In this document: positions 7,101-51,802 of the stretch, in pieces
Layout: every line of letters begins with the position of its first letter
How positions within the stretch are numbered: the first letter of the stretch is position 1
Assembly: GCA_033065855.1 (NCBI GenBank)
Contig: JAVXUO010002276.1
Coordinates: 1 to 64,000, forward strand
Length of the DNA: 64,000 nt
Source: Escallonia rubra
Lineage: Eukaryota > Streptophyta > Magnoliopsida > Escalloniales > Escalloniaceae
Reading direction: 5' to 3'
Notes under the pieces: model-generated
Database searches by the model: none
What the model was told of the DNA's origin: nothing
The model's input: the letters and a program-made list of their open reading frames with translations, nothing else
Translations under genes and position numbers: made by a program

Positions 7101-10064
7101 GTAAAAAGTCTATTTTGGCTCAGATTAATTCATTTTTTTACTAACCGAATTTGTTTAGTTGTTTGAAAAGAAAGTTTCAGACCCTTGTCAATTTAAATTA
7201 AACAATGAAGAACTAAACTGAGACCCTTGTGTGTAAGTTTTCAACCATTTAACTCATAGAAAACGTCCAGATCTTAGTGATCTCAAAATTTGCACACCCA
7301 TACATACTCCCACTCCATCGCTGAGGCACCTGCATTTGCAATCTAGGGTGACGTAAAATGAGATTTGTGAAATTGGGAGCCAAATAAGTGTTATAAGCAA
7401 AATGTGGTGTTATTTTTGTAGAAATTTTGGAAGACAGTAAGGAACCAGGTTCATGGCCCCACCACAGCGTACAGTTTCCTCCTAGGTAGCATGGACACCT
7501 CTCCTAGGTGGAGGTATGGTGTCCTAAACGGACGGACACCCCGACACCCTCCGGACACCGGCCGACACGTGTCGGACACGGCTAATCAGTGTCGTTTTTT
7601 TTTTTTGGAATTCCCCGACACCGTGTCGGACACTTCAACGACGATTGTCGGACACGGCATGCAGCAGTGTCGGACCGTTTGGGGCCAATTTCAGATGTTT
7701 TGAACTATTACCGTCTTCTTCTCCCTCACCTCATGGCTGTTGTCTGCCGACCACATCAAGGCGGTCGTCGGTGTTGTTGGTGTTGCCGGAGCTGTCGCTG
7801 GAGATCTGAAGCCGAAGCCAACGAATCTGACGGCTACAGTCGCTGAAAGAAGAGAAGCCAGCTGCTGCAGCAATTGCCGTCGCCGTCTCCGTCGCCAGAC
7901 GTCTCGCCGTCGTCGCCGGAGGTCCTCCGCCATCGTTGCTGGCCCACAGGTCTCATCTCGACTCCTTTCCCTCACTCCCTCTCGTTTCTTTCATGTTCTT
8001 TTTTCTTTTCTCCCTTTGTCCTCTCGTTTCTTTCCTTTTCTTTTTTCTTTTCTCCCTTTGTCCTCTCGTTTCTTCTTTTCTTTTTTCTCCCTTTGTCGTT
8101 ACATTTCTAGTACATTGGACTAAATAAATATTGACCAAATAAATTATAACTTTTGTTTTGATAGTTTTTCATTATTGTTTGTTATTTTAGATTGTGGAAT
8201 ATATTTCATATTTATTTTATATATATATATATATATATAATAAAAAATACATTAAAAAATAGTGGTGTCCTGCGGTGTCCAAAATCTGATTTTTTGGAAA
8301 TTGCGGTGTCGGTGACACCGACACCGTGTCCGTGCTACCTAGGTTTCCTCAAAACAGGTTGCCAAGTAGGTACCTCTAGCTAATGGGCAGGGTCTTATTT
8401 GGCCAATCACCAATTCTCCCACATTAGATGTGTTTATCGCAGTATCTCCTCCTTATGCCTCGGCGTCCCCGCTGTAGCGCACAATCTTCTATAGTTACTC
8501 ATAGCCATAATCCTTGTCTATAAGCCATTGTTGGATAATGCTGGCAAAGCCGATTGAACAACCTAATCCTAGTCTGCTCCCAACCTCTGGCAATCCTACC
8601 ATAAGGCCCGATCCAACTTTCGAGAGTCGGCTCTAACATCATCTATAGCAAACCAGTTCCATGGCCCCACCATAGGGCAATACCTCCCTCAAAAGGGCTG
8701 CGAGTAGGTACTGAAGAGTTTGTCGTACAAAGCCAATCACAAATTCTCCCACATCCGTTGTGGGATTTTACAAGACGGGAATTCTAAAAGAGCCTCAATG
8801 CCAGACGATCGACAAGTCATTATTACGACACAATCACTATTGAAAGTTTTTGAGAAATAACTCTGAACTCCTAAGCTGCAGACCTATGTTGTTAAATGAT
8901 TCAATTTTTTGTCTTCTTTATGGCGGTAAGGAACAAGTGGATAACGTAGGTGTGGGATTCGTTTTCCCCAATGCTTGTGGTAAATGATCTAGTGCTACGT
9001 GTATCGTGATTTGTGAATTAGGTATCATAAAGTTGAACATTTTTTTTCTCGTGAATTGAAAAAAGAGTGTCTTATCCCCACTTGCAATATCAGGTTATTT
9101 GGGTTTCTTATTCAAAAATTAACTGTATACATTCCTCCATTTTCCCTTGTTCTGTTTACTTGGCCAGATTTTTGAGCTCATTACCTCGTATTGCTTAAGC
9201 CGTTTATTCTTCGAACTTCACCTGCAAGCTGGTTGAATGATGACCTTTTGTCCTTTCCTGACATTCAAATATTTTCTTGGCCTGCTCTTGTAATGACATT
9301 GCATTGCTATGACTTTCCTCAGCTTCATTTCCTTGTAGCAATCGGTTTGTCTAGCTCAAACCAATGTGATCACTGCCTGCCGAGTCTTCTTCCTCACCCT
9401 TGTCTTGAGGGGCCACATTCAGACCTATAGAGTTAGCACAAATAGAACATACCATCCAGCATTTTGGCCAATATTATGGGGTTGTACAACATGCGATAAG
9501 ACTTTGTATCTTAATAGCAACTGCAAAGAACTTGCAGATTATTCGTATGCCAAGCAAGTGATTAAAATGTAAAGCATCTTTACCAAAATTAATTAAACAT
9601 TTGAAACACGCTTTGTCGTAAAAAAATTGGAAAAAGTACAATGAAGGTTTCAGTGTGCTCGCCTTGACAATAACAGCAAAATATTTGTGCATGACAACTA
9701 TTCCAGGGGTACAAAGGGGATTCGCTTTCTTTTTTACTTCTTTTTAGTTTTTAGTTTTTATGGTGTTTGTATGCGCTATAAATGTTTTTAACAATTATGT
9801 TCTATATCACAGGGAGATGAGGGTGGACCCCTTTTTAATCGTAAGAAAGAATTTGTTGGAATCATGTCTGGGAAAGAATCATCTTCTAGCTGTGGTGCTA
9901 TTCCGAGTGACGTCGTTTTGGAAGTTCTGAAAGACTTTATGAAACAGGAGTATGTCTCACGTTTCCAATTTCTTGAACAAATATTTGTCATTGCAGTTCT
10001 AGTTCGCTCTGATTGTGTTGATCTGCAATTCGACTTAAAAGGAAAAGAAGTCCAGAAAATTTAG
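1172..10064 (+). CDS. DegP/HtrA-like serine protease homologue, catalytic Ser replaced
   Basis: Six exons join in phase: 1172-1348, 1439-1576, 3436-3551, 5217-5458, 5635-5689 and 9813-10064, giving 325 codons plus a TAG. The first is phase 1, so an upstream exon is missing from view. The trypsin-like fold is shown by PTVVNVYYRQG, then GAGTIIDPSGIIVTVAHL with the His, then GTVLHADPVNDVAILKIK with the Asp. The serine motif reads GDEGGPLFN, so Glu stands where family members have Ser in G-N/D-S-G-G-P-L. A second GDQGG lies just before it. The residues before PTVV are not recognised. It is nearest to the plant Do-like (DEG) proteases. No PDZ domain is visible. A separate exon-like segment (10519-10572) could replace the 3' end. 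The peptide is probably not a working protease. It may be a pseudoprotease gene or a decaying copy. No promoter was identified. Confidence 0.7.
1577..3435 (+). other. intron 2 of the DegP-like gene
   Basis: The intron opens with a strong GTACGT donor and ends in a pyrimidine-rich acceptor next to a CT-rich run (about 3360-3430). It has no coding signal of its own. It holds an 87-bp tandem duplication, listed separately. Confidence 0.6.
1943..2110. repeat. 87-bp tandem duplication
   Basis: Two diverged copies begin with TTCCATA at 1943 and 2030. Each contains a CAAGGGGCTGGACCA core and a later GCATGAAAAGGCT. It lies in an intron and has no assigned function. Confidence 0.75.
3552..5216 (+). 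other. intron 3 of the DegP-like gene
   Basis: The donor is GTGCAG, weaker than its neighbours. The acceptor is TTTTGTAG. Joining the flanking exons gives the uninterrupted reading KKIE-VSVTLESS, a usual DegP beta-strand order. Nothing recognisable lies inside. Confidence 0.55.
6204..7241. mobile_element. candidate TIR DNA element in intron 5
   Basis: The left edge (AGTTAAATACACTTCAGTACC) resembles the reverse complement of the right edge near 7215-7241 (GTGTGTAAGTTTTCAACC). Terminal tracts of the form 'cactt-agtacct' are common in a class of plant non-autonomous elements. The interior has CCACCGCCA-rich gene-like sequence. The match is imperfect and no target duplication was found. Confidence 0.35.
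7275..7375. repeat. dispersed repeat, copy 1
   Basis: The sequence around GCACACCCATAC, GAGGCA and TGCAATC followed by ATGAGAT recurs at 15705-15815 with the same order and spacing. It may be a shared edge of two related elements. Confidence 0.5.
7482..8342. mobile_element. non-autonomous TIR transposon, 8-bp TSD
   Basis: It begins CTAGGTAGCATGGACAC and ends with the reverse complement of CTAGGTAGCACGGACAC. It is flanked by a perfect 8-bp direct repeat, GTTTCCTC, at 7474-7481 and 8343-8350, the size made by hAT elements. Subterminal GTGTCGG/GGACACC repeats are dense. The interior carries a GC-rich gene-like tract with an Arg-rich frame and a CT-rich tandem repeat. No transposase is present. 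It sits inside an LTR of the older TRIM. Confidence 0.8.
7981..8105. repeat. CT-rich tandem repeat
   Basis: About two and a half copies of a roughly 48-bp unit containing CTCTCGTTTCTTTC and TTTTCTCCCTTTGTC. It is part of the interior of the enclosing transposon. Confidence 0.7.
8773..9812 (+). other. remainder of intron 5 of the DegP-like gene
   Basis: No coding or repeat signal was recognised. It ends in a TATATCACAG acceptor before the exon encoding the serine-motif region. Confidence 0.5.
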
Positions 10065-16547: not shown

Positions 16548-17414
16548 TGTAACGACCCGGTCCACGGCCCCACCACAGGCATTGCCTCCCTCAAAAGGAC
16601 TAGTCAAGTTGGTACTTATGAATTCATAGACAAGGTTTTATAAGACCAATCGCAAACTCTCCCACAACCGATGTGGGATATTACAATCTCCCCACCTTAT
16701 TCCTTAGCGTCCTCGTTAAGGCTCGATCACACATAGCCCAGAATCTTCCTCTCTAGCCAATGTGGGATATACCCAGCTCACCCTTCGTTGCCCCAACCAT
16801 CCTCTTGATGTGGGATATACCCGGGCTTGCCTTCGTTTCCCCCAACCATCGGCAACTCGACTGGACAGCCCAGCCCGAGCTTTCGAGAGTCGGCTCTGAT
16901 ACCATCTGTAACGACCCGGTCCACGGCCCCACCACAGGGAATTGCCTCCCTCAAAAGAGCTAGCCAAGTTGGTACTTATGAGTTCATAGGCAGGGTCTTA
17001 TAAGGCCAATCACAAACTCTCCCACAACCGATGTGGAATATTACAATCTCCCCACCTTATTCCTTAGCGTCCTCTTGAAAGCTCGGGCTGGGCTGTCTAG
17101 TCGAGTTGCCGATGGTTGGGGGAAACGAAGGCAAGTCCGGGTATATCCCACATCAAGAGGATGGTTGGGGCAACGAAGGGTGAGCTGTGTATATCCCACA
17201 TTGGCTAGAGATGAAGATTCTGGGTTATGTGTGATCGAGCCTTAGCGAGGACGCTAAGGGATAAGGTGGAGAGATTGTAATATCCCACATCGGTTGTGGG
17301 AGAGTTTGTGATTGGCCTTATAAGACCCTGCCTATGAACTCATAAGTACCAACTTGACTAGCCCTTTTGAGGGAGGCAATGCCCTGTGGTGAGGCCGTGG
17401 ACCGGGTCATTACA
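16548..17414. mobile_element. three-LTR TRIM composite with inverted outer LTRs (fossil)
   Basis: LTRs of 138-139 bp lie at 16548-16685 (minus), 16907-17045 (minus) and 17276-17414 (plus). The minus-strand LTR starts TGTAATAT and ends GTTACA. Next to the middle LTR a tRNA-iMet-type primer-binding sequence (TGGTATCAGAGC, minus strand) is visible around 16893-16905. A polypurine tract (AAGGTGGGGAGAT) abuts the left LTR. After the middle LTR the internal part starts again, then switches orientation near 17073. The whole is flanked by AATAA at 16543-16547 and 17415-17419, so it appears to have integrated as one unit. It is non-coding and fairly young, judging from LTR similarity. Confidence 0.85.
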
Positions 17415-17419
17415 AATAA

Positions 17420-25139: not shown

Positions 25140-25521
25140 TCCGTTGGGGGATGGCTAGGTGGTTCTTTGCTGCTGCTAATGGATGTGGATTTGTTAGCTT
25201 TCTTACCTTTTGGTCTTAAAGCCTATGCCAAGAAGTAAGTACTGAAACAATTAAATCAAATTTACTGCAGTAGTATTTAAAGAAATTCACTAACTCTATA
25301 ATAGCGTAACACTGATGCAAACTGTGTTACAGATTCTGCTTTGATTTCTCAACTACATATGTTGGCGTTGGGATCATTTTCCCTTATATGGTTAACGAAT
25401 CACAGATTATTAGAGACATAATCTCATGAAGAATCATGTGGCCGTTTATTGAGGCACAGAAAGGCCATTGGTATAGTGCTAACTTATTACCGCCAGTCTT
25501 CATGGCATCCAAGGAAACAGG
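25140..25521 (+). pseudogene. Yellow-Stripe-Like (YSL) transporter fragment
   Basis: Two exons (about 25140-25234 and 25333-25521) joined across a GTAAGT...ACAG intron encode a segment of a YSL/OPT-family metal-nicotianamine transporter. Diagnostic pieces are WFFAAANGCGFVSFLTF, GLKAYAKK, FDFSTTYVGVGIIFPYMVN and, further on, RIMWPFIEAQKGHWYSANL, which match the family's conserved FDFS-TYVG-GMI and IMWPLI-KGDWYPA regions. One extra T in the first exon (TTTTGG) shifts the frame before GLKAY. A TGA stands where the family has the Trp of LSWG. Only a small part of the roughly 650-residue protein is present. It lies in the Helitron-like element and is most likely captured cargo. Confidence 0.8.
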
Positions 25522-25595
25522 GTATGATACCTCAAATCTCCATTTTTCCCTCTTTTTTTTTTTAACTACAAAAGGTGTGGGTTTAGCGAAAATGA

Positions 25596-25690
25596 GCTAT
25601 TATTTTTGAAAGTCAAAGTTCAACTGATTTTTGTGTTAATCCTATTATTTTTGAAAGTCAAAGTTCAATTGAATTTTGTGTTAATCCTAT
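25596..25690. repeat. about 50-bp tandem duplication
   Basis: Two copies of TATTATTTTTGAAAGTCAAA continuing into TTTTGTGTTAATCCTAT. Confidence 0.85.
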
Positions 25691-25924
25691 GAAATGTTAC
25701 CGTAAGGCAAAGTTTACCGAGTGCTACAGCAAGGATAAAGTAAAACATATGTATTATGTACCCATAACGATTCAAAGAACTCAATACAGGGATGTACCCA
25801 TAATCTTTCTCACTAATAAAGTTGGAGAAGAATCATTATACAGGGCTGTAATCTTTCCCACTAAGAAAGTTGGAGAAGAACTCGATACAAGGCTGTAGTT
25901 ACTGTGGCTCAGATTGAGCTTAGT

Positions 25925-26097
25925 GCATTGTGAAGCTGGTTGGTCAAATTGAGCTTAGCTCCATCTCTATTCTGAATTCAACTTTATTAGTGGGAAAGAA
26001 CTCAATACCAGCTTCAAAGAACGTATGTACAATGATTCTTCTCCAACTTCAGGTACAGATGGAGCTAAGCTCAATCTGACCAACCAGCTTCACAATG
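25925..26097. repeat. inverted repeat / potential hairpin
   Basis: GTGAAGCTGGTTGGTCAAAT with TGAGCTTAGCTCCATCT (left, 25930-25968) pairs with AGATGGAGCTAAGCTCAATC and TGACCAACCAGCTTCAC (right, 26057-26093). Nearby AATAAAGTTGGAGAAG blocks (25815-25880) also occur inverted near 25980 and 26040, so several foldbacks are possible. Confidence 0.75.
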
Positions 26098-26880
26098 TAC
26101 TAAGTGTTAGAAAATAGCCATGAGAGAATTGGAAGGAGAAAAAGATGACAACTGTGTCCGGGAGTCCATACCTGAAAAAGATGTTGTTGCCGAACTGGGG
26201 AGTCGAGGAAGAAATAGGGCCATGGAAGCAGCAGCGACGGTAGAGCCAATATCGAAGAAGATGAAGGGGATGCAATTAGGGTTTGACGAGATCTAAGAAG
26301 AGGGTGGGTTTCTGATGATTTTCAAGCGGCAGAATATTGAGAAAAAAGGAAGGGAGGAGCGGCAGACCCGTGAGGATCGTAGCTGGATTTTATCGAGTGG
26401 CACGGATGTAATTTGATTCAAAAGTGTGGGCAAAGTGCTAAAATGGATGGAGATGAGCTACGGCTCTTTTATACTGTGTTAGAAAAACCACAAATGTAAA
26501 ACAGCGTAAAAAGGCTGGATCGACAAGAGTAATTTATTTGATGCAATTTCCAAATAGTTTAGACTCTAGAAAGCCCCCAAGACAGTGCCAACAGAAGAGA
26601 GATTAATTACCAGCTTTCAATGTTTCTTCCAAGAATAACCGTCTGGGAAGGCATACCAAATCTGGATTTTCTATTGATTTAACTACTTTAGCGCTTCGAT
26701 GCTAAGGGCCTGTCTTCTACAATAATCTGAACCCGATCATTCTTACATAACATTCAAATCGAGAGCCTGTTGCATGACCTGCAACATTTCTCCAGCAGAA
26801 GACATACTCTCCAAACCTCAAGAACAAACTAATCATAGTTGGCAGTGGCGTCAGTCAACAGGACAAACAAGTATTAGTTA

Positions 26881-28151
26881 CTTAAACGAAGAGATAAATT
26901 AATGGTGACGGTCGCAGATGAGTGACTATCTATTAAATATGTTTTCTTATGAACACAAAGGCATACTAGCAAACCATATATCTTGCATTTTATGCATAGA
27001 GCAGATAATTTAATCATCTTACTAAATCATATAATACAGTTCCGAGGATCTTCGGCTAAAGCTGGTTCTGGCGTTAAAAAAAAACTAATTGACAGATGTT
27101 TGCGCGGCAATGAGAGGAGCTGTTGTGACAGTCTACTCCAAATTTTTCTGGGATAAGAAAAACCGTGAGTAGTTGTTTCAATATTTAGAAGCCTCAAATT
27201 ACTTTTGAAAAGTTAAAAATATTGGTTGATGTGATCCTCTTTATTTTGTTTTATAGATCGAAACTGTTATTAGCAGGATGTTTAATGTCTCTCACTTTGT
27301 TTCTTTTCGGCTGTTCATACAACCAAGGAAGTCTGGGAAGTGGAGTTCTCGTTGCGCCTAAGAATTTTGTAACTTCGTGTTATCATGTTGTTACCAAACA
27401 ATACAAACTTGATATTGGCAAAGGAACCATTACACTTGCTTGTCCAGCTACTGAGGTAATGTATAATAACTTCATTTGTGTTGTTTTCAGGTAAGGACTA
27501 ACTTTTGTCATTTATTTTACAGATTATGGTGGTGGAGAAGAGTGGCATTCGCCATAAGGCTGTAACGTGGGTATTAAATAATAAGACAGACTTGGCTGCA
27601 CTCAAAGTCCTCACTGAAGATTGGCATCCAGTGAATTCTGAACTAGAATATCATGTCTTTCAAGGTAATTGTCCATAAGTATTTTAAATCTCGCTATTGT
27701 CCATAAGCACACCTAGAGGACAAAAGGATTCTACTTGTTACTATGGGAACGTGACATCTCGCTCGTACAAGAGTTCTTTAATCTATAGATCCACATTTGC
27801 CTTTAATCGAGCATTCATGCTCCATCTACCCAGTAGATGCTTTATCCTCCTTTCTTTCATCTTACATATTCAGCTTAACAAACTTACTTTTCAAAACGTT
27901 GTTTCGAATTTAGGACAGTTCAGGTAGCCTGATCTTTAAAAAAGAGATGAGGACAATTGGAATACATGCACGAAATCTACTATCTGTCGCAGAGCTTATA
28001 AAGTACGCAATTTCAGCCAAATATGTTAACGAAGTTCTTGAATATGCAAGAACTAGAAGGTATCGACTTTTCGATTATTTTTTCTCTAAGCTCGTTTGCT
28101 TTACATTGGCGGAACTTTAAAACCTTGTATATATCTGTTTAATTTTTTCGC
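26881..28151 (+). repeat. left arm of large inverted repeat
   Basis: The arm pairs with 28186-29511 over nearly its full length, from CTTAAACGAAGAGATAAATT at the outer edge to CTGTTTAATTTTTTCGC at the centre. The spacer is only 34 bp (28152-28185). Identity is roughly 90% by eye, with several small indels and a block of about 40 bp extra in the right arm. Each arm contains a copy of a trypsin-like gene. Confidence 0.95.
27100..28125 (+). pseudogene. trypsin-like peptidase gene, left copy
   Basis: Exon-like pieces on the plus strand: MRGAVVTVYSKFFWDKKN before GTGAGT (about 27109-27164); a piece with GSLGSGVLVAPKNFVTSCYH followed by VVTKQYKLDIGKG, ending at GAG-GTAATG (27455); IMVVEKSGIRHKA onward to DLAALKV and EYHVFQ (about 27525-27665, CAAG-GTAATT donor); and a 3' piece with DSSGSLIF, then IHARNLLSVAELIKYAISA and EYARTRRY (27913-28058). 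These give the order Gly-Ser-Gly/His, Asp, Ser-motif of PA-clan peptidases. Joining the Asp piece to the Ser piece by the visible splice sites does not keep frame, so an exon is missed or the copy is broken. His and Asp are retained. Family below PA clan not recognised. Confidence 0.6.
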
Positions 28152-28185
28152 AGGTATTCAGCATAAAAAAAAAGTCTTCAGACCA

Positions 28186-29511
28186 GCGAAAGAATTAAAC
28201 AGACACATAAAAGAATTAAGGTTTTAAAATTCCGCCAATGTAAAATAAATGAGCTTAGAGAAAAAATAACTGAGAAGTCCATACCTTCTAGTTCTTGCAT
28301 ATTCAAGAACTTCGTTAACATAATTGGCCGAAATTGCATACTTTATAAGCTCTGTGACAGATAGTAGATTTCGTGCATGTATTTCAATTGTCCTCGTCTT
28401 ATTGTTAAAGATCGGGTTACCTGAACTGCCCTAAAGTCGAAGCAACGTTTTGAAAAGTAAGTTTGTTGAGCTAAACATGTAAGATGAATGAAAGAAAGGA
28501 AGATAAAGCATCTACTGGGTAGACGGAGCATGAGTGCTCGATTAAAGGCAAATGTGGATCTACAGATTAAGGAACTCTTGTACGAGCGGGATGCCTCATG
28601 TGCCTGTAGTAACAAGCAGAATCCTTTTGTCCTCTAGGTGTGCTTATGTGACCAACTCTTGCCTTGTTAGACAAGAGAAAAACAACAATAGCGAGATTTA
28701 AAAATACTTATAGACAATTACCTTGAAAGACATGATATTCTAGTTCAAAATTCACCGGATGCCAACCTTCAGTGAGGACTTTGAGTGCAGCCAGGTCTGT
28801 CTTATCATTTAATGCCCACGTTAGCCTTATGGCGAATGCCACTCTTCTCCACCATGATCTGTAAAATAAATGACGAAAGTTAATCCTTACCTAAAAAACA
28901 ACACAAATGAAGTTATAATACATTACCTCAGTAGCCGGACAAGCAAGTGTAATGGTCCCTTTGCCAATATCAAGTTTGTATTGTTTAGTAACAACATAAT
29001 AACACGAAGTTACAAAATTCCCAGGTGCAACGATAACTCCACTTCCCAAACTTCCTGGTTGTATGAACAGCCGAAAAGAAACAAAGTAAGAGACATTAAA
29101 CATCCTACTAATAACATTTTCGATCTATAAAACAAAATAAAGAGGATCACATCAACCAATATTTTTAACTTTTCAAAAGTAATTTGAGGGCTCTAAATAT
29201 TGAAACAACTACTCACAGTTTTTCTTATCCCAGAAAAATTTGGAGTAGACTTTCACAACAGCTCCTCCCATTGCCGCGCAAACATCTGTCATCAGCTTTT
29301 TTTGAACGCCAGAACCAGCTTTAGTTGGAGATCCTCGAAAGCTTGGAACTGTATCATATGATTTAGTAAGATGATTAAATTCTCCGCTCTATGCATAAAA
29401 TGCAAGATATATGGTTTGCTAGTATGCCTTTGTGTTCATAAGAAAAGAAAACATACTTAATAGATAGCCACTCATCTGCGACCGTCACCATTAATTTATC
29501 TCTTTGTTTAA
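28186..29511 (-). repeat. right arm of large inverted repeat
   Basis: Reverse-complement partner of 26881-28151. It carries an extra AT/GT-rich block near 28640-28695 and small indels relative to the left arm. Confidence 0.95.
28215..29300 (-). pseudogene. trypsin-like peptidase gene, right copy
   Basis: Mirror copy on the minus strand, convergent with its twin. It reads MFNVSYFVSFRLFIQPGSLG then SGVIVAPGNFVTSCYYVV, so the His of the left copy (CYH) is Tyr here. The Asp-bearing piece has small deletions (3 bp after GTGGTG, 2 bp after AAGGCT) that shift its frame relative to the left copy and bring a TGA. The serine region reads GSSGNPIFN, then TRTIEIHARNLLSVTELIKY, a better match to the GxSGxP motif than the left copy's DSSGSL. 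The mixture suggests each copy has lost a different part. Confidence 0.6.
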
Positions 29512-30560
29512 GAAGCAAACACCGGGGAAAAAAATGCAGGTGTATACAAAACATGGTACTACATACTAGCACAATACCGTTGCAATATGCAAGGGAGCCT
29601 ATCATAGAAAGATAAAACATCAAAACTAGAAACAATCCAACATCATCGGGGCTTACACTGCAGGTCACAATTAATCACCACATTGTACTGTGATCTATAA
29701 AATTGTTACCACTGTAGATAGATTCAAAAAGACGACTATGTCCTAAGTTGTTTCCCTACTAAACAGAAGCATGATGGCTATATTCAAAATAATTATATTT
29801 TTGGCAAGACTGATACTGATTATCCTCTAACGATGAGAGAATAGAAAAAAGAAATTATCAAAGCTATATAGATCGAGTAATTGTGTCAAAAGGGTACGTA
29901 ACACATGCAAAGTTTAAGCCAAAAAGGAAAAGAACAAATGTCCTCTATGTACAGCCATCTGCAATACCCTAGAGTATTAACAATTCTCTATCCGGATGAA
30001 ACGCTTCAAAAGCGAAAAATAAAATCGAGAAAAGTGCAAATTAATGTCAGCAAAATTAATTTTCCCAGAGTGGCATACTTCCATTTTATCCCAACATAAA
30101 GATGACAATCTGATGCAATAGTGTCACCTCCTGATCGAGCTACAATTTTAATAAAAAATACAAAAACTAAAGTCCATGGAAGTCAGTAATAATATGCATT
30201 GATTTAAGCATTCATACATAATTAAATGGAGGAAAGTAACAATGATCATTTAAATGTTCGAACTGTGATTATGAAGTGAGTTTTACCCTCGAGAGAGGCC
30301 CACATGAGCTTTCAAAAACATCGTATTACAAATGGTAGTACAGTATTTGGATAGGTCTCGAACCCACTCCATATAAGCGTTGATACTAAGAAGAAGCACC
30401 TAAAGGGGCAGTAGTGTCAGTTGGTCAAGGCTAAGTAGGCATTTGTGATTTGTCTATCAGAAATCCAGAGCAAAGCATATAAAACTAGGCGACCAGAATA
30501 CTTGTTTTTCCATAAGAAGGTGTTAGTACATGGTGATTGAAGCACCATACATTCTATCCG
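29512..30560. other. stretch without recognised features
   Basis: AT-rich sequence between the inverted repeat and the LINE. No supported gene or repeat boundary. Confidence 0.4.
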
Positions 30561-33500
30561 GAATCATCTAGGACAAGTAGAAGTAGTACAGGGAGGAGAT
30601 CTTGTGGTTAAGGAAGCAATTAGAAAATTTTGCTACCTCTCTTTAATTTGATGACCAGTATAATGTTAGGAGCCAACAAGTGGTAACCGAAGGCTTACTT
30701 CAGAGCAGGAAGAAGCATTAACACAACCTGTTACCTCAGAGGAGGTTAAGCAAGATTTCTGTTCTCTCAAGCATATTAAGGCACCTGGACCTGATGGGTT
30801 CAACAGATTTGTGATAGAGTGGGGCAGGATGTGGCTTTTTTCAATCAGGGTAAGTCCATTAAATTTCTCAAGAATACTGTCATCACTCTCATTCCTACAG
30901 CCAAGCGCCCCGCTACAAGACAGTCAGCTATGAAGCACCGGTGCGGCACTTAGGGTGAAGCACCGGCACCGGATACGCGTCGGGTGCGGCACCGGTGCGT
31001 GTCAGTGCGTGTCCAGCTTTTTTTTAAAAAAAAATCTTAAATATCGGGTGCGTATCCGGCGATCTGTGACCACCGGTAACACCGGCCACTCCAGCGACAC
31101 CGGCGACCACCGGCAAGGACTCTGACGAGAGAGGAGACTGGAGAGAAGAAGTAGAAGCAACAGAAGAAGGAGAAGAAGAAGAAAAAGAAGGAGAAGGACT
31201 AACCGGCGATGGCGACGGCGTGCGGCGTGCGGCGTGCGGCCAGAGAAGAAGAAGAGGCACGGTCAATGTTATCTATGTTGGACCGTTGGTTGTATGGAGT
31301 GGACTCTTGACAAATGTTTGTTATTTTATGTTAAAGTACCCATTGTTAAGTTATTATATAAACTACCCCAGTACTTCAAAGAAATAAAAGTGATACCACG
31401 TAAAAACTTTATTCTTTTCAAATTTATAATTTTATATTTATAAAACAGTCCATTAAACTTAACAAATTCTTACTAATTTGGTTGAAAGTTTTAAAATTTA
31501 CGAAAGAGCCCATTAAACTTAAAAACTCACTACTTTGTTTGGAATATTAATATCTTTTTACATATATCAAACACATATATTATGATTATTGAGATTCAAA
31601 CTGTTTAAAAATTTAATACTAAGTGTATATAATTAAAAAAATATTTATAAAATTTGCCGTATCCTCGCCGCACCCGTATCCTTAAATTCAAAAATGTCAT
31701 AACCGTGTATCCGCACCCGTGTCATCCCGCATCCGTGCTTCTTAGACGGTCAGTTTTTGTGGAAGGTAGGCATATTGCTGATATTATATTTTATGCAAGA
31801 AGCCTATTGATGCAAGAATTGGTGAATAAACACAACAAGAGGGAGGTCCCACCTAGATGTGTGTTGAAAATTCATTTACGGATGGGATGAGATTTCCTGA
31901 GGTGTGTTCTGGAGACTTTCCAATTCCTTGAGGAGTACATCAACTGGATAATGGAGTTTATTACCACTATCCTGTTTTCCCTAAACTTGAATGGAAGTAG
32001 ATATGGATATTTTTCAGCTGCTAAGGGTCTTAGACAGGAGTTCCTGTATCCCCTTAAATCGCCTTAATTGTTCTTACTGGTCATGGAGGTGTTATCTAGC
32101 TTGTTGGATGTTTATACCAGCTGACCTACCGTCGTACAAGTCATTTTTTCAAATGACAAGTTGATTTTCGCTGCTGCTGATGCTAACTCAAACTACCTTA
32201 GTTAGTCAAGCTTTGGAGGAATTTGCAAATATGTCAGAAAAGTTACCTGTTTACTACTAGCCTCAATGAAGCTCTAACCATGAACACGATCCAAATCAGT
32301 GGCACCACTCGTGATAGCCATCCTGTGACTTATTTGGGAGTTCCATTGATTTCTACCTAGCTTTGTGCCAAGGATTGTACAAGATTATTCAAGAAAATCA
32401 CTCAGAGAATTACCACTTGGACCGGTCAATACCTTTCATATGCAGGTAGAATTCTACTAGCTACCTCTGGCCTACTGAGTATGCATATGCACTGGTGCTC
32501 CATCTTTATCTTGCCCAATAAAAGTCATCATGACTATTGAGAAGAAGATTATAGCATTTATCTGGCATGGTCAGGAACTGAGTATGCACAAAGGCAAAGG
32601 TAGCAAGGAAAGGTCTCTGTCTACCTATTTAAGAAGGAGGTTTGAGTGTTTGACGCTTAAAAGCTTAGATGTACGGAATCAAGCTGCAACGTCTTAACAT
32701 TATTATGATAGCTGGTACACAAAAAGGACTCTGTATGGGTTTAATGGTGTCCCACCTATATCATAAAGGGCAGAGCGTGTGGTCCTTTTAACCCCCTGCT
32801 TGCTTGTCTGGTCTTGGATGAAGTTGATTAGCTAAGGAGCAAGATTCAACCGTTCATTAAGTACAGAGTTGGAAATGGAAGGGATACTTGGTTGTGGTTG
32901 GATAACTGGCTCCCTTGTGACTCTATTCTTGATAACTATGGAGCTAGAATTGTGTGTGATGCAGCCAGTTATTTAAATGCTAAGGTTAGTACAATCCTAC
33001 AGGATGGCATCTCCCTTATATCTGATCGCAGGCACTTAGATCTCTTAATACCATACTTCAACGTACTCCTATCCCTTGCATGGAAAATGAGGATAAGGCA
33101 TACCGACTCAAACAGCTAATGGGGATTTGTTTTATAAAATCTACTAATGCTTTGAGAGTCCACAAACCTAAGGTGTTTTGGTGGAGATTAGTATGGTTTC
33201 CTGGTCATATTCTGCAAATGGATGTGATTATGTGGATAGTATGTCATAGAAGGCTGCAGACAGAGAATAGTCTTCTTCGATGGAACATTGCAAATGATAA
33301 TAGCTGTTGTCTTTGCTCTTGGTGAAGTGAGACTATGGAACAGTTATTTGTGGTTGCTCTTTTACAAAACAAGTCTGGCAGAGAGTGTTGGATAAATTGC
33401 AGGTTCAATAGTAGGTGCATAGTTGTTCTCAGCAGATTGACTTTACTACTGCAAATTTCAGAGGTAAAAGCTTCAGAGAAGGAGCATGCAAGCTTGCCAT

Positions 33501-41571: not shown

Positions 41572-42272
41572 GGAGCAGGATCGTCTGTTGTAACTAGGGT
41601 TACAGCAGACATGCTGTAACTCTAGTTACAGCCGTCCGATTGAGATAGGTTTGAGATGACGGCCTAGATTATGCTACATCATCAAGTCTCTGCTGACCCC
41701 AATTCTCTCTCTCTCTCTCTCTCTCCACAATTCCAACTACCGGCAGCCAAGAAACGTTCTACTCCTCCACCTTCCGGCGGCGAAAACACCTCCTTCTCCT
41801 CCACCTCCAAACAGTGAACCGGCCTGAAATCGTAGTTTTGCCATGGAAGAACTATCACCTTCCGGCAACTATATAGCCGGAAGGTGGGCATAGGATTAGT
41901 GGTGATGGTGGTGGTCCTGAATTACGATGGTGGCCGGCACGGTGGTGGTGACACAGGCTGTACGGAGACGGGAGACGACCAACGAGATAAGGGAGATAAG
42001 GCCATCTATGCTATATCGTCGCTGGAAAATGGAGGGTCGTCGTCGTCGGAAGCTGGAGAGTCGTCGTTGCCGGAAGTGGAGGTCGTCGCCGGCAGATTGA
42101 CTGTAGAGAGAGAAGATCAGGGTGCTCTCTCTCTTTGGACTTCACGCCAACAATTCGGAAACAGAAGTTTGCTGACGTGGCTTGATCGTGGCCTTCGAAA
42201 TTGATCGGATGGTTGTAACTAGAGCTACAGCATGTCTGCTGTAACCCTAGTTACAGCAGACAATCCGGATCC
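41572..42272. mobile_element. Mutator-like TIR element, 9-bp TSD
   Basis: Long inverted ends of about 70 bp: the left contains GTCTGTTGTAACTAGGGTTA and CAGCAGACATGCTGTAACTC, and the right is its near-complement. It is flanked by a perfect 9-bp repeat, GTTTTCCTT, at 41563-41571 and 42273-42281. The interior is CCGGCGGCG/GTCGTCGTCG-rich and gene-like. Its right part, from 41932, is included in every unit of the tandem array, so the array arose after this insertion. Confidence 0.85.
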
Positions 42273-42436
42273 GTTTTCCTTCTATCTCAAAACAGCATTG
42301 ATGAGCCAGAGAGGCAGATGAGTCAAATTAAATGTGGAGCAGCCACCAGAGCTTCGTGCAACAGGTTTTCCTTCTATCTCAAAACCGCATTGATGAGCCA
42401 GAGCTACCACAGCCAGCTGCTTTGGCAGGTTCTCCA

Positions 42437-42501
42437 CTACAGCCAGCTGCTTCTGCAGGTTCTCCACTACAGCGAGAACCTGCAGAAGCAGCTGGCTGTA
42501 G
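42437..42501. repeat. perfect 28-bp hairpin, present in each array unit
   Basis: Arms CTACAGCCAGCTGCTTCTGC+AGGTTCTC (42437-42464) and its exact complement (42474-42501) are separated by a 9-base loop, CACTACAGC. A direct partial copy of the left arm precedes it (42410-42436). Outer arms containing CAAATTAAAT (42315-42340 and 42505-42535) extend the foldback. The same structure recurs in all seven units. Confidence 0.95.
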
Positions 42502-42539
42502 TAGCTTTCATATTTAATTTGGCTCATCTGCTCACGTAT

Positions 42540-42677
42540 GAAGCTTGAAGATAAAGAACCTTTACTGGCCCAAATCAAAAGTCAAGTGTTCCTTTCTTCC
42601 ATTTACGTTAGCTTTCAACGGGCATCTGCAGAGACTCAGAGACTAAAGGTAAAGGTTCTTTCTTATCTTCAAGCTTC
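42540..42677. repeat. second inverted repeat in each array unit
   Basis: GAAGCTTGAAGATAAAGAAC+CTTTAC (42540-42565) is inverted at 42649-42677 with a 3-base bulge. The intervening 83 bases contain the beginning of ClpB-like exon 1, so the start of that exon is itself part of a small inverted duplication. Confidence 0.9.
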
Positions 42678-43903
42678 ACGCGTATTTCCCTCAAATCTTG
42701 CACCATTTGTTTACACCCATCAGTCTCATTTCAATGGGAGAGCTAGAATTTTGGCCACTGCGCTCACCAGATTATCGTCTGAGCTTCTAAGCAGTTACTC
42801 CTCCAGTTCCGAGTCCTCCAATCCAGGCAAAGATGTGGTATAATTCATGTACATATTTTTCATTGATGCTTACAAAGGAAACATATGACGCGATAAGGAT
42901 TTATTGCTTGCATTCAATCTAAAATTACCTAGTAAAATAAGAATGAAAATAATCTTCTCTGTTTCCATGTTTACAGATTACAAATACATGCTTCACAAAG
43001 AGGGCATGGGATGGATTTGTTGGTGGTGCCTCTTTCGCATTTGTCCACTATCACCGCACAAGGGACTGAGAACATCTCATGAAAGCTCTTTTAGGAGGAT
43101 GGGATAGCTGCTAGAATCTTAGCCAAGAGCGGACATGACCGAAAATCTATTCTAGAAATAGTGGATGAGTTCTTATCGAAGCAACATGAGATGTTCGCAG
43201 TCCATTGTGCGGTGATGGGTGATGAACGCGTCTTGACACTAGCTCCACATCTGAACAACGTGTTGCACGTTGCAAGAAATCACTCAAAAAGTTGTGGGCA
43301 AGACTTGATCTCTGTCGAGCATCTAATGCTAGCATTATATGCCGACGATAGATTTGGTCTGCCTTTCTACAGGCGCCTGCAGCTGAATGAGACCGATCTG
43401 AAGGATGCATTCCCTCGTGTTCGCAGAGGCGAGGGTTCAACTGATAGAGGTAGTAACGTCCTCTTATATTCATGTTTTTGACATAACGTCCCACTGAGTT
43501 GCTTGCTTTTTTTGTATCTTTGACCTTTGTCACTTCTCTAGGCTAAATATGGTCAGACAACGACCTTTACTACATGCTTGTCAATAGTACACAGTTCATA
43601 ATATTCGGGTTGTTATACTAATTTGTTTTCTGTTAAGTGCCCTCAGTCTGGTTAATAATTCAGATGACTTCCATGAGAACTTAGATAGTGTGTTAATGCT
43701 GCAGCACCAGGGATCTTGTGGATACTAGTTCTATAGATGTTTTTGTCTTTTTGGGCAACCAGAAAATATTCTGATGTCTTCTTGTAAGGCTAGTTGCAAA
43801 CTACTCAAATTATAAAGTGGTAAAACTAATGTCAGCATTGCCTTGTTCTCCAAAAGGCTGCATTTTACGCTGGTTGACAGATTAGGGGACTCTGGTTCCA
43901 AAA

Positions 43904-45879
43904 GGCCGGCACGGTGGTGGTGACACAGGCTGTACGGAGACGGGAGACGACCGACGAGATAAGGGAGACAAGGCCATCTATGCTATATCGTCGCTGGAAA
44001 ATGGAGGGTCGTCGTCGCCAGAAGCTGGAGAGTCGTCGTTGCCGGAAGTGGAAGTCGTCGCCGGCAGATTGACTGTAGAGAAAGAAGATCAGGGTGCTCT
44101 CTCTCTCTTTGGACTTCACGCCAACAATTGGGAAACAGAAGTTTGCTGACGTGGCTTGATCGTGGCCTTCGAAATTGATCGGATGGCTGTAACTAGAGCT
44201 ACAGCATGTCTGTTGTAACCCTAGTTACAGCAGACAATCCGGATCCGTTTTCCTTCTATCTCAAAACAGCATTGATGAGCCAGAGAGACAGATGAGTCAA
44301 ATTAAATGTGGAGCAGCTACCAGAGCTTCGTGCAACAGGTTTTCCTTCTATCTCAAAACCGCATTAATGAGCCAGAGCTACCACAGCCAGCTGCTTCGGC
44401 AGGTTCTCCACTACAGCCAGCTGCTTCTGCAGGTTCTCCACTACAGCGAGAACCTGCAGAAGCAGCTGGCTGTAGTAACTTTCATATTTAATTTGGCTCC
44501 TCTGCTCACGTATGAAGCTTGAAGATAAAGAACCTTTACTGGCCCAAATCAAAAGTCAAGTGTTCCTTTCTTCCATTTACGTTAGCTTTCAACGGGCATC
44601 TGCAGAGACTCAGAGACTAAAGGCAAAGGTTCTTTCTTATCTTCAAGCTTCACGCGTATTTCCCTCAAATCTTGCACCATTTGTTTACACCCATCAGTCT
44701 CATTTCAATGGGAGAGCTAGAATTTCGGCCACCGCGCTCACCAGATTATCGTCTGAGCTTCTAAGCAGTTACTCCTCCAGTTCCGAGTCCTCCAATCCAG
44801 GCAAAGATGTGGTATAATTCATGTACATATTTTTCATTGATGCTTACAAAGGAAAAATATGACGCGATAAGGATTTATTGCTTGCATTCAATCTAAAATT
44901 ACCTAGTAAAATAAGAATGAAAATAATCTTCTCTGTTTCCATGTTTACAGATTACAAATACATGCTTCACAAAGAGGGCATGGGATGGATTTGTTGGTGG
45001 TGCCTCTTTCGCATTTGTCCACTATCACCGCACAAGGGACTGAGAACATCTCATGAAAGCTCTTTTAGGAGGATGGGATAGCTGCTAGAATCTTAGCCAA
45101 GAGCGGACATGACCGAAAATCTATTCTAGAAATAGTGGATGAGTTCTTATCGAAGCAACATGAGATGTTCGCAGTCCATTGTGCGGTGATGGGTGATGAA
45201 CGCGTCTTGACACTAGCTCCACATCTGAACAACGTGTTGCACGTTGCAAGAAATCACTCAAAAAGTTGTGGGCAAGACTTGATCTCCGTCGAGCATCTAA
45301 TGCTAGCATTATATGCCGACGAATAGATTTGGTCTGCCTTTCTACAGGCGCCTGCAGCTGAATGAGACCGATCTGAAGGATGCATTCCCTCGTGTTCGCA
45401 GAGGCGAGGGTTCAGCTGATAGAGGTAGTAACGTCCTCTTATATTCATGTTTTTGACATAACGTCCCACTGAGTTGCTTGCTGTTTTTTGTATCTTTGAC
45501 CTTTGTCACTTCTCTAGGCTAAATATGGTCAGACAACGACCTTTACTACATGCTTGTCAATAGTACACAGTTCATAATATTCGGGTTGTTATACTAATTT
45601 GTTTTCTGTTAAGTGCCCTCAGTCTGGTTAATAATTCAGATGACTTCCATAAGAACTTAGATAGTGTGTTAATGCTGCAGCACCAGGGATCTTGTGGATA
45701 CTAGTTCTATAGATGTTTTTGACTTTTTGGGCAACCAGAAAATATTCTGATGTCTTCTTGTAAGGCTAGTTGCAAACTACTCAAATTATAAAGTGGTAAA
45801 ACTAATGTCAGCATTATCTTGTTCTCCAAAAGGCTGCATTTTAGGCTGGTTGACAGATTAGGGGACTCTGGTTCCAAAA
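43904..45879 (+). pseudogene. array unit 2, ClpB-like N-terminal part
   Basis: Same layout as unit 1 (exon 1 from 44512, exon 2 from about 44951). It keeps FPSN and HLNN/HVARN as in units 1 and 7. One extra A (GACGAATAG) truncates the second Clp repeat right after LYADE, a break unique to this unit. Confidence 0.8.
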
Positions 45880-47854
45880 GGCCGGCACGGTGGTGGTGAC
45901 ACAGGCTGTACGGAGACGGGAGACGACCGACGAGATAAGGGAGACAAGGCCATCTATGCTATATCGTCGCTGGAAAATGGAGGGTCGTCGTCGCCAGAAG
46001 CTGGAGAGTCGTCGTTGCCGGAAGTGGAAGTTGTCGCCGGCAGATTGACTGTAGAGAAAGAAGATCAGGGTGCTCTCTCTCTCTTTGGACTTCACGCCAA
46101 CAATTGGGAAACAGAAGTTTGCTGACGTGGCTTGATCGTGGCCTTCGAAATTGATCGGATGGCTGTAACTAGAGCTACAGCATGTCTGCTGTAACCCTAG
46201 TTACAGCAGACAATCCGGATCCGTTTTCCTTCTATCTCAAAACAGCATTGATGAGCCAGAGAGACAGATGAGTCAAATTAAATGTGGAGCAGCTACCAGA
46301 GCTTCGTGCAACAGGTTTTCCTTCTATCTCAAAACCGCATTGATGAGCCAGAGCTACCACAGCCAGCTGCTTCGGCAGGTTCTCCACTACAGCCAGCTGC
46401 TTCTGCAGGTTCTCCACTACAGCGAGAACCTGCAGAAGCAGCTGGCTGTAGTAGCTTTCATATTTAATTTGGCTCCTCTGCTCACGTATGAAGCTTGAAG
46501 ATAAAGAACCTTTACTGGCCCAAATCAAAAGTCAAGTGTTCCTTTCTTCCATTTACGTTAGCTTTCAACGGGCATCTGCAGAGACTCAGAGACTAAAGGC
46601 AAAGGTTCTTTCTTATCTTCAAGCTTCACGCGTATTTTCCTCAAATCTTGCACCATTTGTTTACACCCATCAGTCTCATTTCAATGGGAGAGCTAGAATT
46701 TCGGCCACCGCGCTCACCAGATTATCGTCTGAGCTTCTAAGCAGTTACTCCTCCAGTTCCGAGTCCTCCAATCCAGGCAAAGATGTGGTATAATTCATGT
46801 ACATATTTTTCATTGATGCTTACAAAGGAAAAATATGACGCGATAAGGATTTATTGCTTGCATTCAATCTAAAATTACCTAGTAAAATAAGAATGAAAAT
46901 AATCTTCTCTGTTTCCATGTTTACAGATTACAAATACATGCTTTACAAAGAGGGCATGGGATGGATTTGTTGGTGGTGCCTCTTTCGCATTTGTCCACTA
47001 TCACCGCACAAGGGACTGAGAACATCTCATGAAAGCTCTTTTAGGAGGATGGGATAGCTGCTAGAATCTTAGCCAAGAGCGGACATGACCGAAAATCTAT
47101 TCTAGAAATAGTGGATGAGTTCTTATCGAAGCAACATGAGATGTTCGCAGTCCATTGTGCGGTGATGGGTGATGAACGCGTCTTGACACTAGCTCCACAT
47201 GTGAACAACGTGTTGCACGTTACAAGAAATCACTCAAAAAGTTGTGGGCAAGACTTGATCTCCGTCGAGCATCTAATGCTAGCATTATATGCCGACGATA
47301 GATTTGGTCTGCCTTTCTACAGGCGCCTGCAGCTGAATGAGACCGATCTGAAGGATGCATTCCCTCGTGTTCGCAGAGGCGAGGGTTCAACTGATAGAGG
47401 TAGTAACGTCCTCTTATATTCATGTTTTTGACATAACGTCCCACTGAGTTGCTTGTTGTGTGTTGTATCTTTGACCTTTGTCACTTCTCTAGGCTAAATA
47501 TGGTCAGACAACGACCTTTACTACATGCTTGTCAATAGTACACAGTTCATAATATTCGGGTTGTTATACTAATTTGTTTTCTGTTAAGTGCCCTCAGTCT
47601 GGTTAATAATTCAGATGACTTCCATGAGAACTTAGATAGTGTGTTAATGCTGCAGCCCCAGGGATCTTGTGGATACTAGTTCTATAGATGTTTTTGTCTT
47701 TTTGGGCAACCAGAAAATATTCTGATGTCTTCTTGTAAGGCTAGTTGCAAACTACTCAAATTATAAAGTGGTAAAACTAATGTCAGCATTGCCTTGTTCT
47801 CCAAAAGGCTGCATTTTACGCTGGTTGACAGATTAGGGGACTCTGGTTCCAAAA
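45880..47854 (+). pseudogene. array unit 3, ClpB-like N-terminal part
   Basis: Exon 1 from 46488, exon 2 from about 46927. Inner-type variants: FSSN, HVNN and HVTRN. The 106-codon frame over the second Clp repeat (47111-47431) is open. The shared TGA and frame change upstream remain. Confidence 0.8.
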
Positions 47855-49829
47855 GGCCGGCACGGTGGTGGTGACACAGGCTGTACGGAGACGGGAGACG
47901 ACCGACGAGATAAGGGAGACAAGGCCATCTATGCTATATCGTCGCTGGAAAATGGAGGGTCGTCGTCGCCAGAAGCTGGAGAGTCGTCGTTGCCGGAAGT
48001 GGAAGTTGTCGCCGGCAGATTGACTGTAGAGAAAGAAGATCAGGGTGCTCTCTCTCTCTTTGGACTTCACGCCAACAATTGGGAAACAGAAGTTTGCTGA
48101 CGTGGCTTGATCGTGGCCTTCGAAATTGATCGGATGGCTGTAACTAGAGCTACAGCATGTCTGCTGTAACCCTAGTTACAGCAGACAATCCGGATCCGTT
48201 TTCCTTCTATCTCAAAACAGCATTGATGAGCCAGAGAGACAGATGAGTCAAATTAAATGTGGAGCAGCTACCAGAGCTTCGTGCAACAGGTTTTCCTTCT
48301 ATCTCAAAACCGCATTGATGAGCCAGAGCTACCACAGCCAGCTGCTTCGGCAGGTTCTCCACTACAGCCAGCTGCTTCTGCAGGTTCTCCACTACAGCGA
48401 GAACCTGCAGAAGCAGCTGGCTGTAGTAGCTTTCATATTTAATTTGGCTCCTCTGCTCACGTATGAAGCTTGAAGATAAAGAACCTTTACTGGCCCAAAT
48501 CAAAAGTCAAGTGTTCCTTTCTTCCATTTACGTTAGCTTTCAACGGGCATCTGCAGAGACTCAGAGACTAAAGGCAAAGGTTCTTTCTTATCTTCAAGCT
48601 TCACGCGTATTTTCCTCAAATCTTGCACCATTTGTTTACACCCATCAGTCTCATTTCAATGGGAGAGCTAGAATTTCGGCCACCGCGCTCACCAGATTAT
48701 CGTCTGAGCTTCTAAGCAGTTACTCCTCCAGTTCCGAGTCCTCCAATCCAGGCAAAGATGTGGTATAATTCATGTACATATTTTTCATTGATGCTTACAA
48801 AGGAAAAATATGACGCGATAAGGATTTATTGCTTGCATTCAATCTAAAATTACCTAGTAAAATAAGAATGAAAATAATCTTCTCTGTTTCCATGTTTACA
48901 GATTACAAATACATGCTTTACAAAGAGGGCATGGGATGGATTTGTTGGTGGTGCCTCTTTCGCATTTGTCCACTATCACCGCACAAGGGACTGAGAACAT
49001 CTCATGAAAGCTCTTTTAGGAGGATGGGATAGCTGCTAGAATCTTAGCCAAGAGCGGACATGACCGAAAATCTATTCTAGAAATAGTGGATGAGTTCTTA
49101 TCGAAGCAACATGAGATGTTCGCAGTCCATTGTGCGGTGATGGGTGATGAACGCGTCTTGACACTAGCTCCACATGTGAACAACGTGTTGCACGTTACAA
49201 GAAATCACTCAAAAAGTTGTGGGCAAGACTTGATCTCCGTCGAGCATCTAATGCTAGCATTATATGCCGACGATAGATTTGGTCTGCCTTTCTACAGGCG
49301 CCTGCAGCTGAATGAGACCGATCTGAAGGATGCATTCCCTCGTGTTCGCAGAGGCGAGGGTTCAACTGATAGAGGTAGTAACGTCCTCTTATATTCATGT
49401 TTTTGACATAACGTCCCACTGAGTTGCTTGTTGTGTGTTGTATCTTTGACCTTTGTCACTTCTCTAGGCTAAATATGGTCAGACAACGACCTTTACTACA
49501 TGCTTATCAATTGTACACAGTTCATAATATTCGGGTTGTTATACTAATTTGTTTTCTGTTAAGTGCCCTCAGTCTGGTTAATAATTCAGATGACTTCCAT
49601 GAGAACTTAGATAGTGTGTTAATGCTGCAGCCCCAGGGATCTTGTGGATACTAGTTCTATAGATGTTTTTGTCTTTTTGGGCAACCAGAAAATATTCTGA
49701 TGTCTTCTTGTAAGGCTAGTTGCAAACTACTCAAATTATAATGTGGTAAAACTAATGTCAGCATTGCCTTGTTCTCCAAAAGGCTGCATTTTACGCTGGT
49801 TGACAGATTAGGGGACTCTGGTTCCAAAA
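47855..49829 (+). pseudogene. array unit 4, ClpB-like N-terminal part
   Basis: Exon 1 from 48463, exon 2 from about 48902. Nearly identical to unit 3 (same length, same FSSN/HVNN/HVTRN variants). A 76-codon frame in its tail (49424-49654) is open only here and in unit 5, because of a few point differences; it is not thought to be a gene. Confidence 0.8.
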
Positions 49830-51802
49830 GGCCGGCACGGTGGTGGTGACACAGGCTGTACGGAGACGGGAGACGACCGACGAGATAAGGGAGACAAGGC
49901 CATCTATGCTATATCGTCGCTGGAAAATGGAGGGTCGTCGTCGCCGGAAGCTGGAGAGTCGTCGTTGCCGGAAGTGGAGGTCGTCGCCGGCAGATTGACT
50001 GTAGAGAGAGAAGATCAGGGTGCTCTCTCTCTTTGGACTTCACGCCAACAATTGGCAAACAGAAGTTTGCTTACGTGGAGGACTCGTGGCCTTCGAAATT
50101 GATCGGATGGCTGTAACTAGAGCTACAGCATGTCTGCTGTAACCCTAGTTACAGCAGACAATCCGGATCCGTTTTCCTTCTATCTCAAAATAGCATTGAT
50201 GAGCCAGAGAGACAGAGGAGTCAAATTAAATGTGGAGCAGCTACCAGAGCTTCGTGCAACAGGTTTTCCTTCTATCTCAAAACCGCATTGATGAGCCAGA
50301 GCTACCACAGCCAGCTGCTTCGGCAGGTTCTCCACTACAGCCAGCTGCTTCTGCAGGTTCTCCACTACAGCGAGAACCTGCAGAAGCAGCTGGCTGTAGT
50401 AGCTTTCATATTTAATTTGGCTCCTCTGCTCACGTATGAAGCTTGAAGATAAAGAACCTTTACTGGCCCAAATCAAAAGTCAAGTGTTCCTTTCTTCCAT
50501 TTACGTTAGCTTTCAACGGGCATCTGCAGAGACTCAGAGACTAAAGGCAAAGGTTCTTTCTTATCTTCAAGCTTCACGCGTATTTTCCTCAAATCTTGCA
50601 CCATTTGTTTACACCCATCAGTCTCATTTCAATGGGAAAGCTAGAATTTCGGCCACCGCGCTCACCAGATTATCGTCTGAGCTTCTAAGCAGTTACTCCT
50701 CCAGTTCCGAGTCCTCCAATCCAGGCAAAGATGTGGTATAATTCATGTACATATTTTTCATTGATGCTTACAAAGGAAAAATATGACGCGATAAGGATTT
50801 ATTGCTTGCATTCAATCTAAAATTACCTAGTAAAATAAGAATGAAAATAATCTTCTCTGTTTCCATGTTTACAGATTACAAATACATGCTTTACAAAGAG
50901 GGCATGGGATGGATTTGTTGGTGGTGCCTCTTTCGCATTTGTCCACTATCACCGCACAAGGGACTGAGAACATCTCATGAAAGCTCTTTTAGGAGGATGG
51001 GATAGCTGCTAGAATCTTAGCCAAGAGCGGACATGACCGAAAATCTATTCTAGAAATAGTGGATGAGTTCTTATCGAAGCAACATGAGATGTTCGCAGTC
51101 CATTGTGCGGTGATGGGTGATGAACGCGTCTTGACACTAGCTCCACATGTGAACAACGTGTTGCACGTTACAAGAAATCACTCAAAAAGTTGTGGGCAAG
51201 ACTTGATCTCCGTCGAGCATCTAATGCTAGCATTATATGCCGACGATAGATTTGGTCTGCCTTTCTACAGGCGCCTGCAGCTGAATGAGACCGATCTGAA
51301 GGATGCATTCCCTCGTGTTCGCAGAGGCGAGGGTTCAACTGATAGAGGTAGTAACGTCCTCTTATATTCATGTTTTTGACATAACGTCCCACTGAGTTGC
51401 TTGTTGTGTGTTGTATCTTTGACCTTTGTCACTTCTCTAGGCTAAATATGGTCAGACAACGACCTTTACTACATGCTTATCAATTGTACACAGTTCATAA
51501 TATTCGGGTTGTTATACTAATTTGTTTTCTGTTAAGTGCCCTCAGTCTGGTTAATAATTCAGATGACTTCCATGAGAACTTAGATAGTGTGTTAATGCTG
51601 CAGCCCCAGGGATCTTGTGGATACTAGTTCTATAGATGTTTTTGTCTTTTTGGGCAACCAGAAAATATTCTGATGTCTTCTTGTAAGGCTAGTTGCAAAC
51701 TACTCAAATTATAATGTGGTAAAACTAATGTCAGCATTGCCTTGTTCTCCAAAAGGCTGCATTTTACGCTGGTTGACAGATTAGGGGACTCTGGTTCCAA
51801 AA
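49830..51802 (+). pseudogene. array unit 5, ClpB-like N-terminal part
   Basis: Exon 1 from 50436, exon 2 from about 50875. Inner-type FSSN/HVNN/HVTRN, plus a private GKAR for GRAR. The transposon-derived part carries a private GCTTACGTGGAGGACTCGTG variant near 50070. Confidence 0.8.

Follow-up and report, generated by a model that had tools for sequence, protein, structure and literature searches.

The closest described system to the locus reported here is the PAI1-PAI4 gene pair of Arabidopsis (Ws, C24 and Cvi), a tail-to-tail gene palindrome that gives rise to a fold-back RNA by read-through transcription (PMC3203196); its Cvi form also appears in PMC13213937. As described there, most PAI1-PAI4 transcripts stop at the centre of the palindrome, and a minority read through it to yield dsRNA and 21-24-nt small RNAs, which help to maintain methylation at PAI genes, including unlinked ones (PMC3203196). 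The origin of pseudogene-related miRNA genes from inverted duplication is also documented (PMC3237417).

The locus under study is a near-palindrome in a 64,000-nt stretch of DNA from Escallonia rubra (contig JAVXUO010002276.1, positions 1 to 64,000), the whole of which is termed the window. It resembles PAI1-PAI4 in that a coding gene has been duplicated tail to tail, so that the 3' ends of the copies lie at the centre. PAI1-PAI4 differs in having a shown promoter, read-through transcripts, 21-24-nt small RNAs and methylated unlinked targets, all of which would be predictions for the Escallonia palindrome; both Escallonia copies are broken and 6.5% diverged, unlike PAI1-PAI4. The VIM4-VIM2 pair of Arabidopsis Cvi is likewise a gene-family palindrome with near-perfect stem-loop potential, but its genes lie head-to-head, and it produces siRNAs and is linked to reduced expression of VIM (PMC13213937). 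The soybean CHS inverted repeat (I locus) is similar in that inverted coding genes spawn siRNAs there, and differs in its identical 10.91-kb arms, placed 5.71 kb apart, and in its known siRNAs and targets (PMC6710647). Inverted paralogous pseudogenes with predicted hairpins and mapped small RNAs are described in rice, where the arms given are 154-185 bp and the illustrated loop is 1,283 nt (PMC2708354), compared with arms of ∼ 1.3 kb and a loop of 26 nt here. The Arabidopsis inverted repeats IR71 and IR2039 are processed to small RNAs, with small RNA production and methylation both measured there (PMC5910406). A literature search for a trypsin-like gene in siRNA palindromes returned nothing relevant. 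Judged on its sequence features, the Escallonia palindrome is, in structure only, a further example of inverted gene duplications that could form a hairpin, a kind already known.

When the DNA is aligned locally in inverted orientation, 26881-28155 pairs best with 29512-28182; the 1,268 aligned columns comprise 1,186 identities and 82 mismatches (93.5% identity), there are 13 gap openings, and blastn places the borders of the arms at the same positions. This agrees with the two arms of about 1.3 kb, pairing almost end to end, that were described in a first-pass annotation of this DNA; the spacer measures 26 nt, rather than the 34 bp given there. Global alignment of the arms, which ends at 29511, one base short, and so comprises 1,267 columns plus one extra end gap, contains 67 transitions and 15 transversions (K2P distance 0.0685). 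The largest gap between the arms is 34 nt and lies inside a proposed intron. Mismatch counts per 50 bases show no overdispersion or clustering (variance/mean 0.92 over 25 bins), with somewhat denser mismatches towards the centre (raw counts of 30 in the first 12 bins and 50 in the last 13). The inverted-alignment score of the palindrome is 1947, as compared with a best score of 525 among 21 control windows taken elsewhere in the 64 kb; these followed a fixed grid, were 2,632 bases each and were split at the midpoint, the resulting halves of 1,316 bases being slightly shorter than those used for the palindrome. The top-scoring control contains a second fold-back at 16.5-17.4 kb. The near-palindrome is real and beyond chance. 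Its features are collected in Table 1.

Table 1. Features of the Escallonia rubra near-palindrome (positions are those of the window).
Feature	Position	Strand	Remarks
Left arm; copy of the Trypsin_2 peptidase gene, decayed, introns proposed	26881-28155	+	
Proposed exon 3, left copy, presumed catalytic His (CAT, 27384-27386)	27277-27455	+	Splice borders by eye
Proposed exon 4, left copy, presumed catalytic Asp (KTDLAAL)	27523-27664	+	Borders by eye
Proposed exon 5, left copy; frame and borders uncertain	27708-27832	+	Open 79-aa frame 27688-27927
Proposed exon 6, left copy, serine region DSSGSL	27914-28059	+	Borders by eye
Proposed last exon, left copy, TAA end inside spacer	28154-28166	+	By eye
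Spacer (loop), 26 nt; includes proposed left-copy stop TAA (28164-28166)	28156-28181		
Right arm; second copy in inverted orientation, identity to left arm 93.5% over aligned columns	28182-29512	-	

Other repeats are present in the window. The second fold-back (16548-17417) has 343-bp arms of 94.5% identity and a 182-nt spacer, and diverged copies of it (∼ 76%) lie near 8347-8773. It carries on the minus strand a stretch, TGGTATCAGAGC, that we take to resemble a Met-tRNA primer binding site, and it is perhaps an LTR/TRIM-type element in an inverted array. To the left of the palindrome, a small diverged fold-back at 25804-26104, with arms ∼ 70-96% complementary in pieces, is perhaps a MITE-like element on the evidence of its sequence. 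To the right, 30670-33325 holds a broken LINE-type reverse-transcriptase remnant, with a KAPGPDGF motif seen by eye at ∼ 30.8 kb, in a frame with no Pfam match above cut-off, and a zf-RVT domain at 33.1-33.3 kb (E 6e-12). Further along, 41932-55745 consists of seven head-to-tail units of ∼ 1.97 kb, which share 98.3-99.1% identity across blastn blocks and each carry the same exon. The first copy, the only one scanned, matches Clp_N (PF02861, E 5e-12), and a 128-aa frame is open in six of the seven copies, with 85 aa in the second; by its sequence, this array arose when a ClpB-like N-terminal gene fragment was amplified recently.

The exon pieces of the left arm, when joined, match the Pfam family Trypsin_2 (PF13365) over the whole profile (1-144 of 144) with an E-value of 1.9e-6 and 29.1 bits, 1.5 bits over the curated cut-off of 27.6; this match depends on hand-drawn splice borders, and no other Pfam family matched. 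Neither of the two right-arm pieces searched against Pfam matched a family, proposed exon 5 alone gave no Pfam match, and phmmer against the PDB found no peptidase, its single match being unrelated (E 0.073). The gene models were drawn by eye, without a plant protein for comparison. GT-AG borders are seen by eye at most proposed junctions; exon 5 as drawn is out of phase with its neighbours and the tentative exon 1 donor is lost in the left arm, and as both of these exons are uncertain, some lesions there may reflect wrong models. The copies lie tail to tail with both 3' ends at the spacer, and the position of the left copy's proposed stop codon within the spacer indicates that the centre of the palindrome is the end of the coding region. 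Identity between the arms is continuous through exons and intervening sequence alike, which indicates that genomic DNA was duplicated and that the arms are not two retrocopies.

Each copy carries lesions that the other lacks, the polarity of which was judged by which arm retains the frame. In the left arm, proposed exon 2 lacks 8 nt at its start and has an extra nucleotide further in, and the serine motif bears substitutions (DSSGSL, as compared with GSSGNP in the right arm, read from 28430 down). The right arm has lost one nucleotide in exon 3 and two in exon 4, its last acceptor is TG in place of the AG of the left arm, and its presumed catalytic His codon, CAT at 27384-27386 in the left arm, is TAT (Tyr) at 28998-28996. 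The presumed His, Asp and Ser, a triad assigned by eye, are thus retained in the left arm, yet that copy is frameshifted; with the right arm frameshifted and its His changed to Tyr, neither copy combines the three residues with an open frame. The description of the locus in the first-pass annotation as two convergent trypsin-like genes therefore holds for the family, at a score just above the Trypsin_2 cut-off, and not for the word 'genes', since the lesions mark both copies as probable pseudogenes.

No lesion common to both arms was seen in exons 2-4 and 6, which suggests that the gene may have been intact at the time of duplication. In the 168 codons that could be compared, dN is 0.053 and dS 0.094 (dN/dS 0.57; binomial p=0.19 against neutrality), and mismatches are about as dense in the compared exon codons (30/504) as in the rest of the arms (52/763; p=0.56). 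Exons 1 and 5, the beginning of exon 2 and codons beside indels do not enter the exon count, so that 'the rest of the arms' comprises introns together with these excluded exon parts. With only 30 exon differences the power of these comparisons is low, neutrality here means a failure to reject it, and the dN/dS value could include a period under constraint. From their sequences, both copies look like pseudogenes that are drifting neutrally.

Taken together, the palindrome is probably an old inverted tail-to-tail duplication of an intron-containing trypsin-like peptidase gene, both copies of which are now neutrally drifting pseudogenes. The surrounding genome is of plant nuclear type, to judge by the introns, the zf-RVT remnant, the Clp_N repeats and the general character of the repeats. 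The event would have been a DNA-level inverted duplication at the 3' end of the gene, for example by template switching or break repair. Plant substitution rates are ∼ 6.5-7e-9 per site per year, at which the K2P distance of 0.0685 would correspond to roughly 5 million years, a figure uncalibrated for this lineage.

The duplicated arms retain the capacity to pair. The predicted minimum free energy of a 2,670-nt region containing the palindrome is -1967 kcal/mol for the plus strand and -2028 kcal/mol for the minus strand, against -658 to -740 kcal/mol in five control windows, with 1,218 and 1,234 predicted cross-arm pairs, respectively. The predicted hairpin is near-continuous on both strands, with only one loop side of more than 8 nt on each besides the terminal loop. 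A duplex capacity of more than 1 kb, as claimed at first pass, is thus recovered in silico, and the palindrome is, as a modelled fold, a long inverted repeat of the structure that characterizes a hairpin-RNA (hpRNA/IR) siRNA locus. If transcribed through, it could be a Dicer substrate, by analogy with PAI1-PAI4 of Arabidopsis: a transcript crossing the spacer would fold into a long hairpin, which would be diced to 21-24-nt siRNAs. As at PAI1-PAI4, these would act mostly in cis, by RNA-directed DNA methylation, and would reach an intact relative of the gene only incidentally. The chances that the palindrome yields siRNAs in some tissue may be put at about even. An AATAAA at 28244 on the plus strand, ∼ 60 nt into the right arm, might polyadenylate the plus-strand transcript early and leave only a short central hairpin; for a minus-strand transcript, an AATAAA lies at 27516.

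The first-pass annotation had also presented inverted gene duplications as known precursors of siRNA loci and of young MIR genes. The first part has its precedent in PAI1-PAI4, from which small RNAs are made, as noted above. A young MIR gene finds no support at this locus, as no short conserved duplex stands out between the arms: the longest identical stretch, at 72 nt, is within chance (expected mean 64.5, p=0.26), the mismatches are spread without clustering, and an Rfam scan of the window gave no match at the gathering score. A tRNA scan of the window also found none.

A rival to the reading as a drifting pseudogene pair is that the palindrome is an active hairpin-RNA locus, in which read-through RNA is diced to 21-24-nt siRNAs, a paralogous peptidase gene is silenced in trans and the palindrome has been retained for that purpose. 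Consistent with this, the predicted hairpin is near-continuous on both strands, and in the arm alignment 248 of 1,318 windows of 21 columns match perfectly and 939 differ at no more than two positions, so that many of the siRNAs produced by dicing would fit either arm; PAI1-PAI4, VIM4-VIM2, soybean CHS and the rice inverted pseudogene pairs provide precedents. Against it, changes that preserve G-U pairing are not in excess on the plus strand (28 transitions lead to G-U and 39 to A-C, p=0.22), and the longest identical stretch between the arms is, as above, of a length expected by chance.

C/T differences between the arms are enriched at CG+CHG sites (31/149, against 36/335 at CHH; odds ratio 2.2, p=0.004), as in methylated DNA, which would favour an active locus. 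However, the same excess is found in one of five control pairs, units 1 and 7 of the ClpB-like array (p=0.001), and for this reason it was not used as evidence of silencing. The remaining controls were ClpB-like units 1 and 4 (p=0.81; CG alone p=0.02) and, each with small numbers, the 16.5-kb fold-back (p=0.77), the 12631/19259 pair (p=0.40) and the 56555/56680 pair (p=0.18). Moreover, CpG observed/expected ratios are 0.79 and 0.68 in the arms, 0.61 in the flanks and 0.68 in the window, and so are not lower in the arms than in the flanks. As a sequence-based proxy, these data neither support nor exclude siRNA-directed methylation. On balance an active locus of this kind is unlikely, and a maintained regulatory role of the palindrome in trans is likewise doubtful. 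In engineered hairpins, mismatches are reported to guard against self-silencing (PMC9263138). The bolder proposal, that a dead protease pair has served as a dsRNA source on a scale of millions of years and continues to silence or methylate living paralogues, protected from self-silencing by its arm mismatches, is very unlikely.

Palindromes with short spacers are a recognized assembly hazard, and the locus might be an artefact in which one locus was folded back on itself or two haplotypes or paralogues were joined tail to tail. A simple fold would yield identical arms, whereas those observed differ by 67 transitions, 15 transversions and several indels, one of them 34 nt long. The assembly fold that the first-pass annotation had itself raised is thus argued against by a divergence of 6.5% that arose mainly through transitions. 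Such a divergence also strikes us as large for a pair of haplotypes, and blastn at an E-value of 1 finds no match between the left flank (25401-26880) and the right flank (29512-31500). An assembly artefact of either form is accordingly most improbable. Equally hard to sustain is a fold-back transposon or Pack-type element with gene fragments within long terminal inverted repeats, for although the arms are 1.3-kb inverted repeats and mobile-element remnants lie nearby (the zf-RVT domain and the 16.5-17.4 kb fold-back), there is no target-site duplication at the outer borders (26841-26885 and 29506-29560; the best shared word, the 6-nt CAAACA, lies 11 nt off the left border and is non-abutting), the flanks lack a blastn match to each other (a single 27-nt direct match at 78% joins 26115 and 29828), the window holds no further copy, with only weak matches outside the arms (blastn E at least 0.02, tblastn E at least 0.45), and zf-RVT is the sole mobile-element domain among 20 frames given to Pfam.

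The inverted duplication of a peptidase gene, with both copies decaying, would bear on the fate of gene palindromes in either of two ways. If it is transcribed, the Escallonia locus would be another natural case in which a gene palindrome works like an RNAi construct built into the genome, and the measurable divergence of its arms would make it possible to study how much decay a hairpin tolerates while still being diced. If it is not transcribed, it would be an example of a palindrome's possible end, in which both genes are lost neutrally and pairing is slowly lost.
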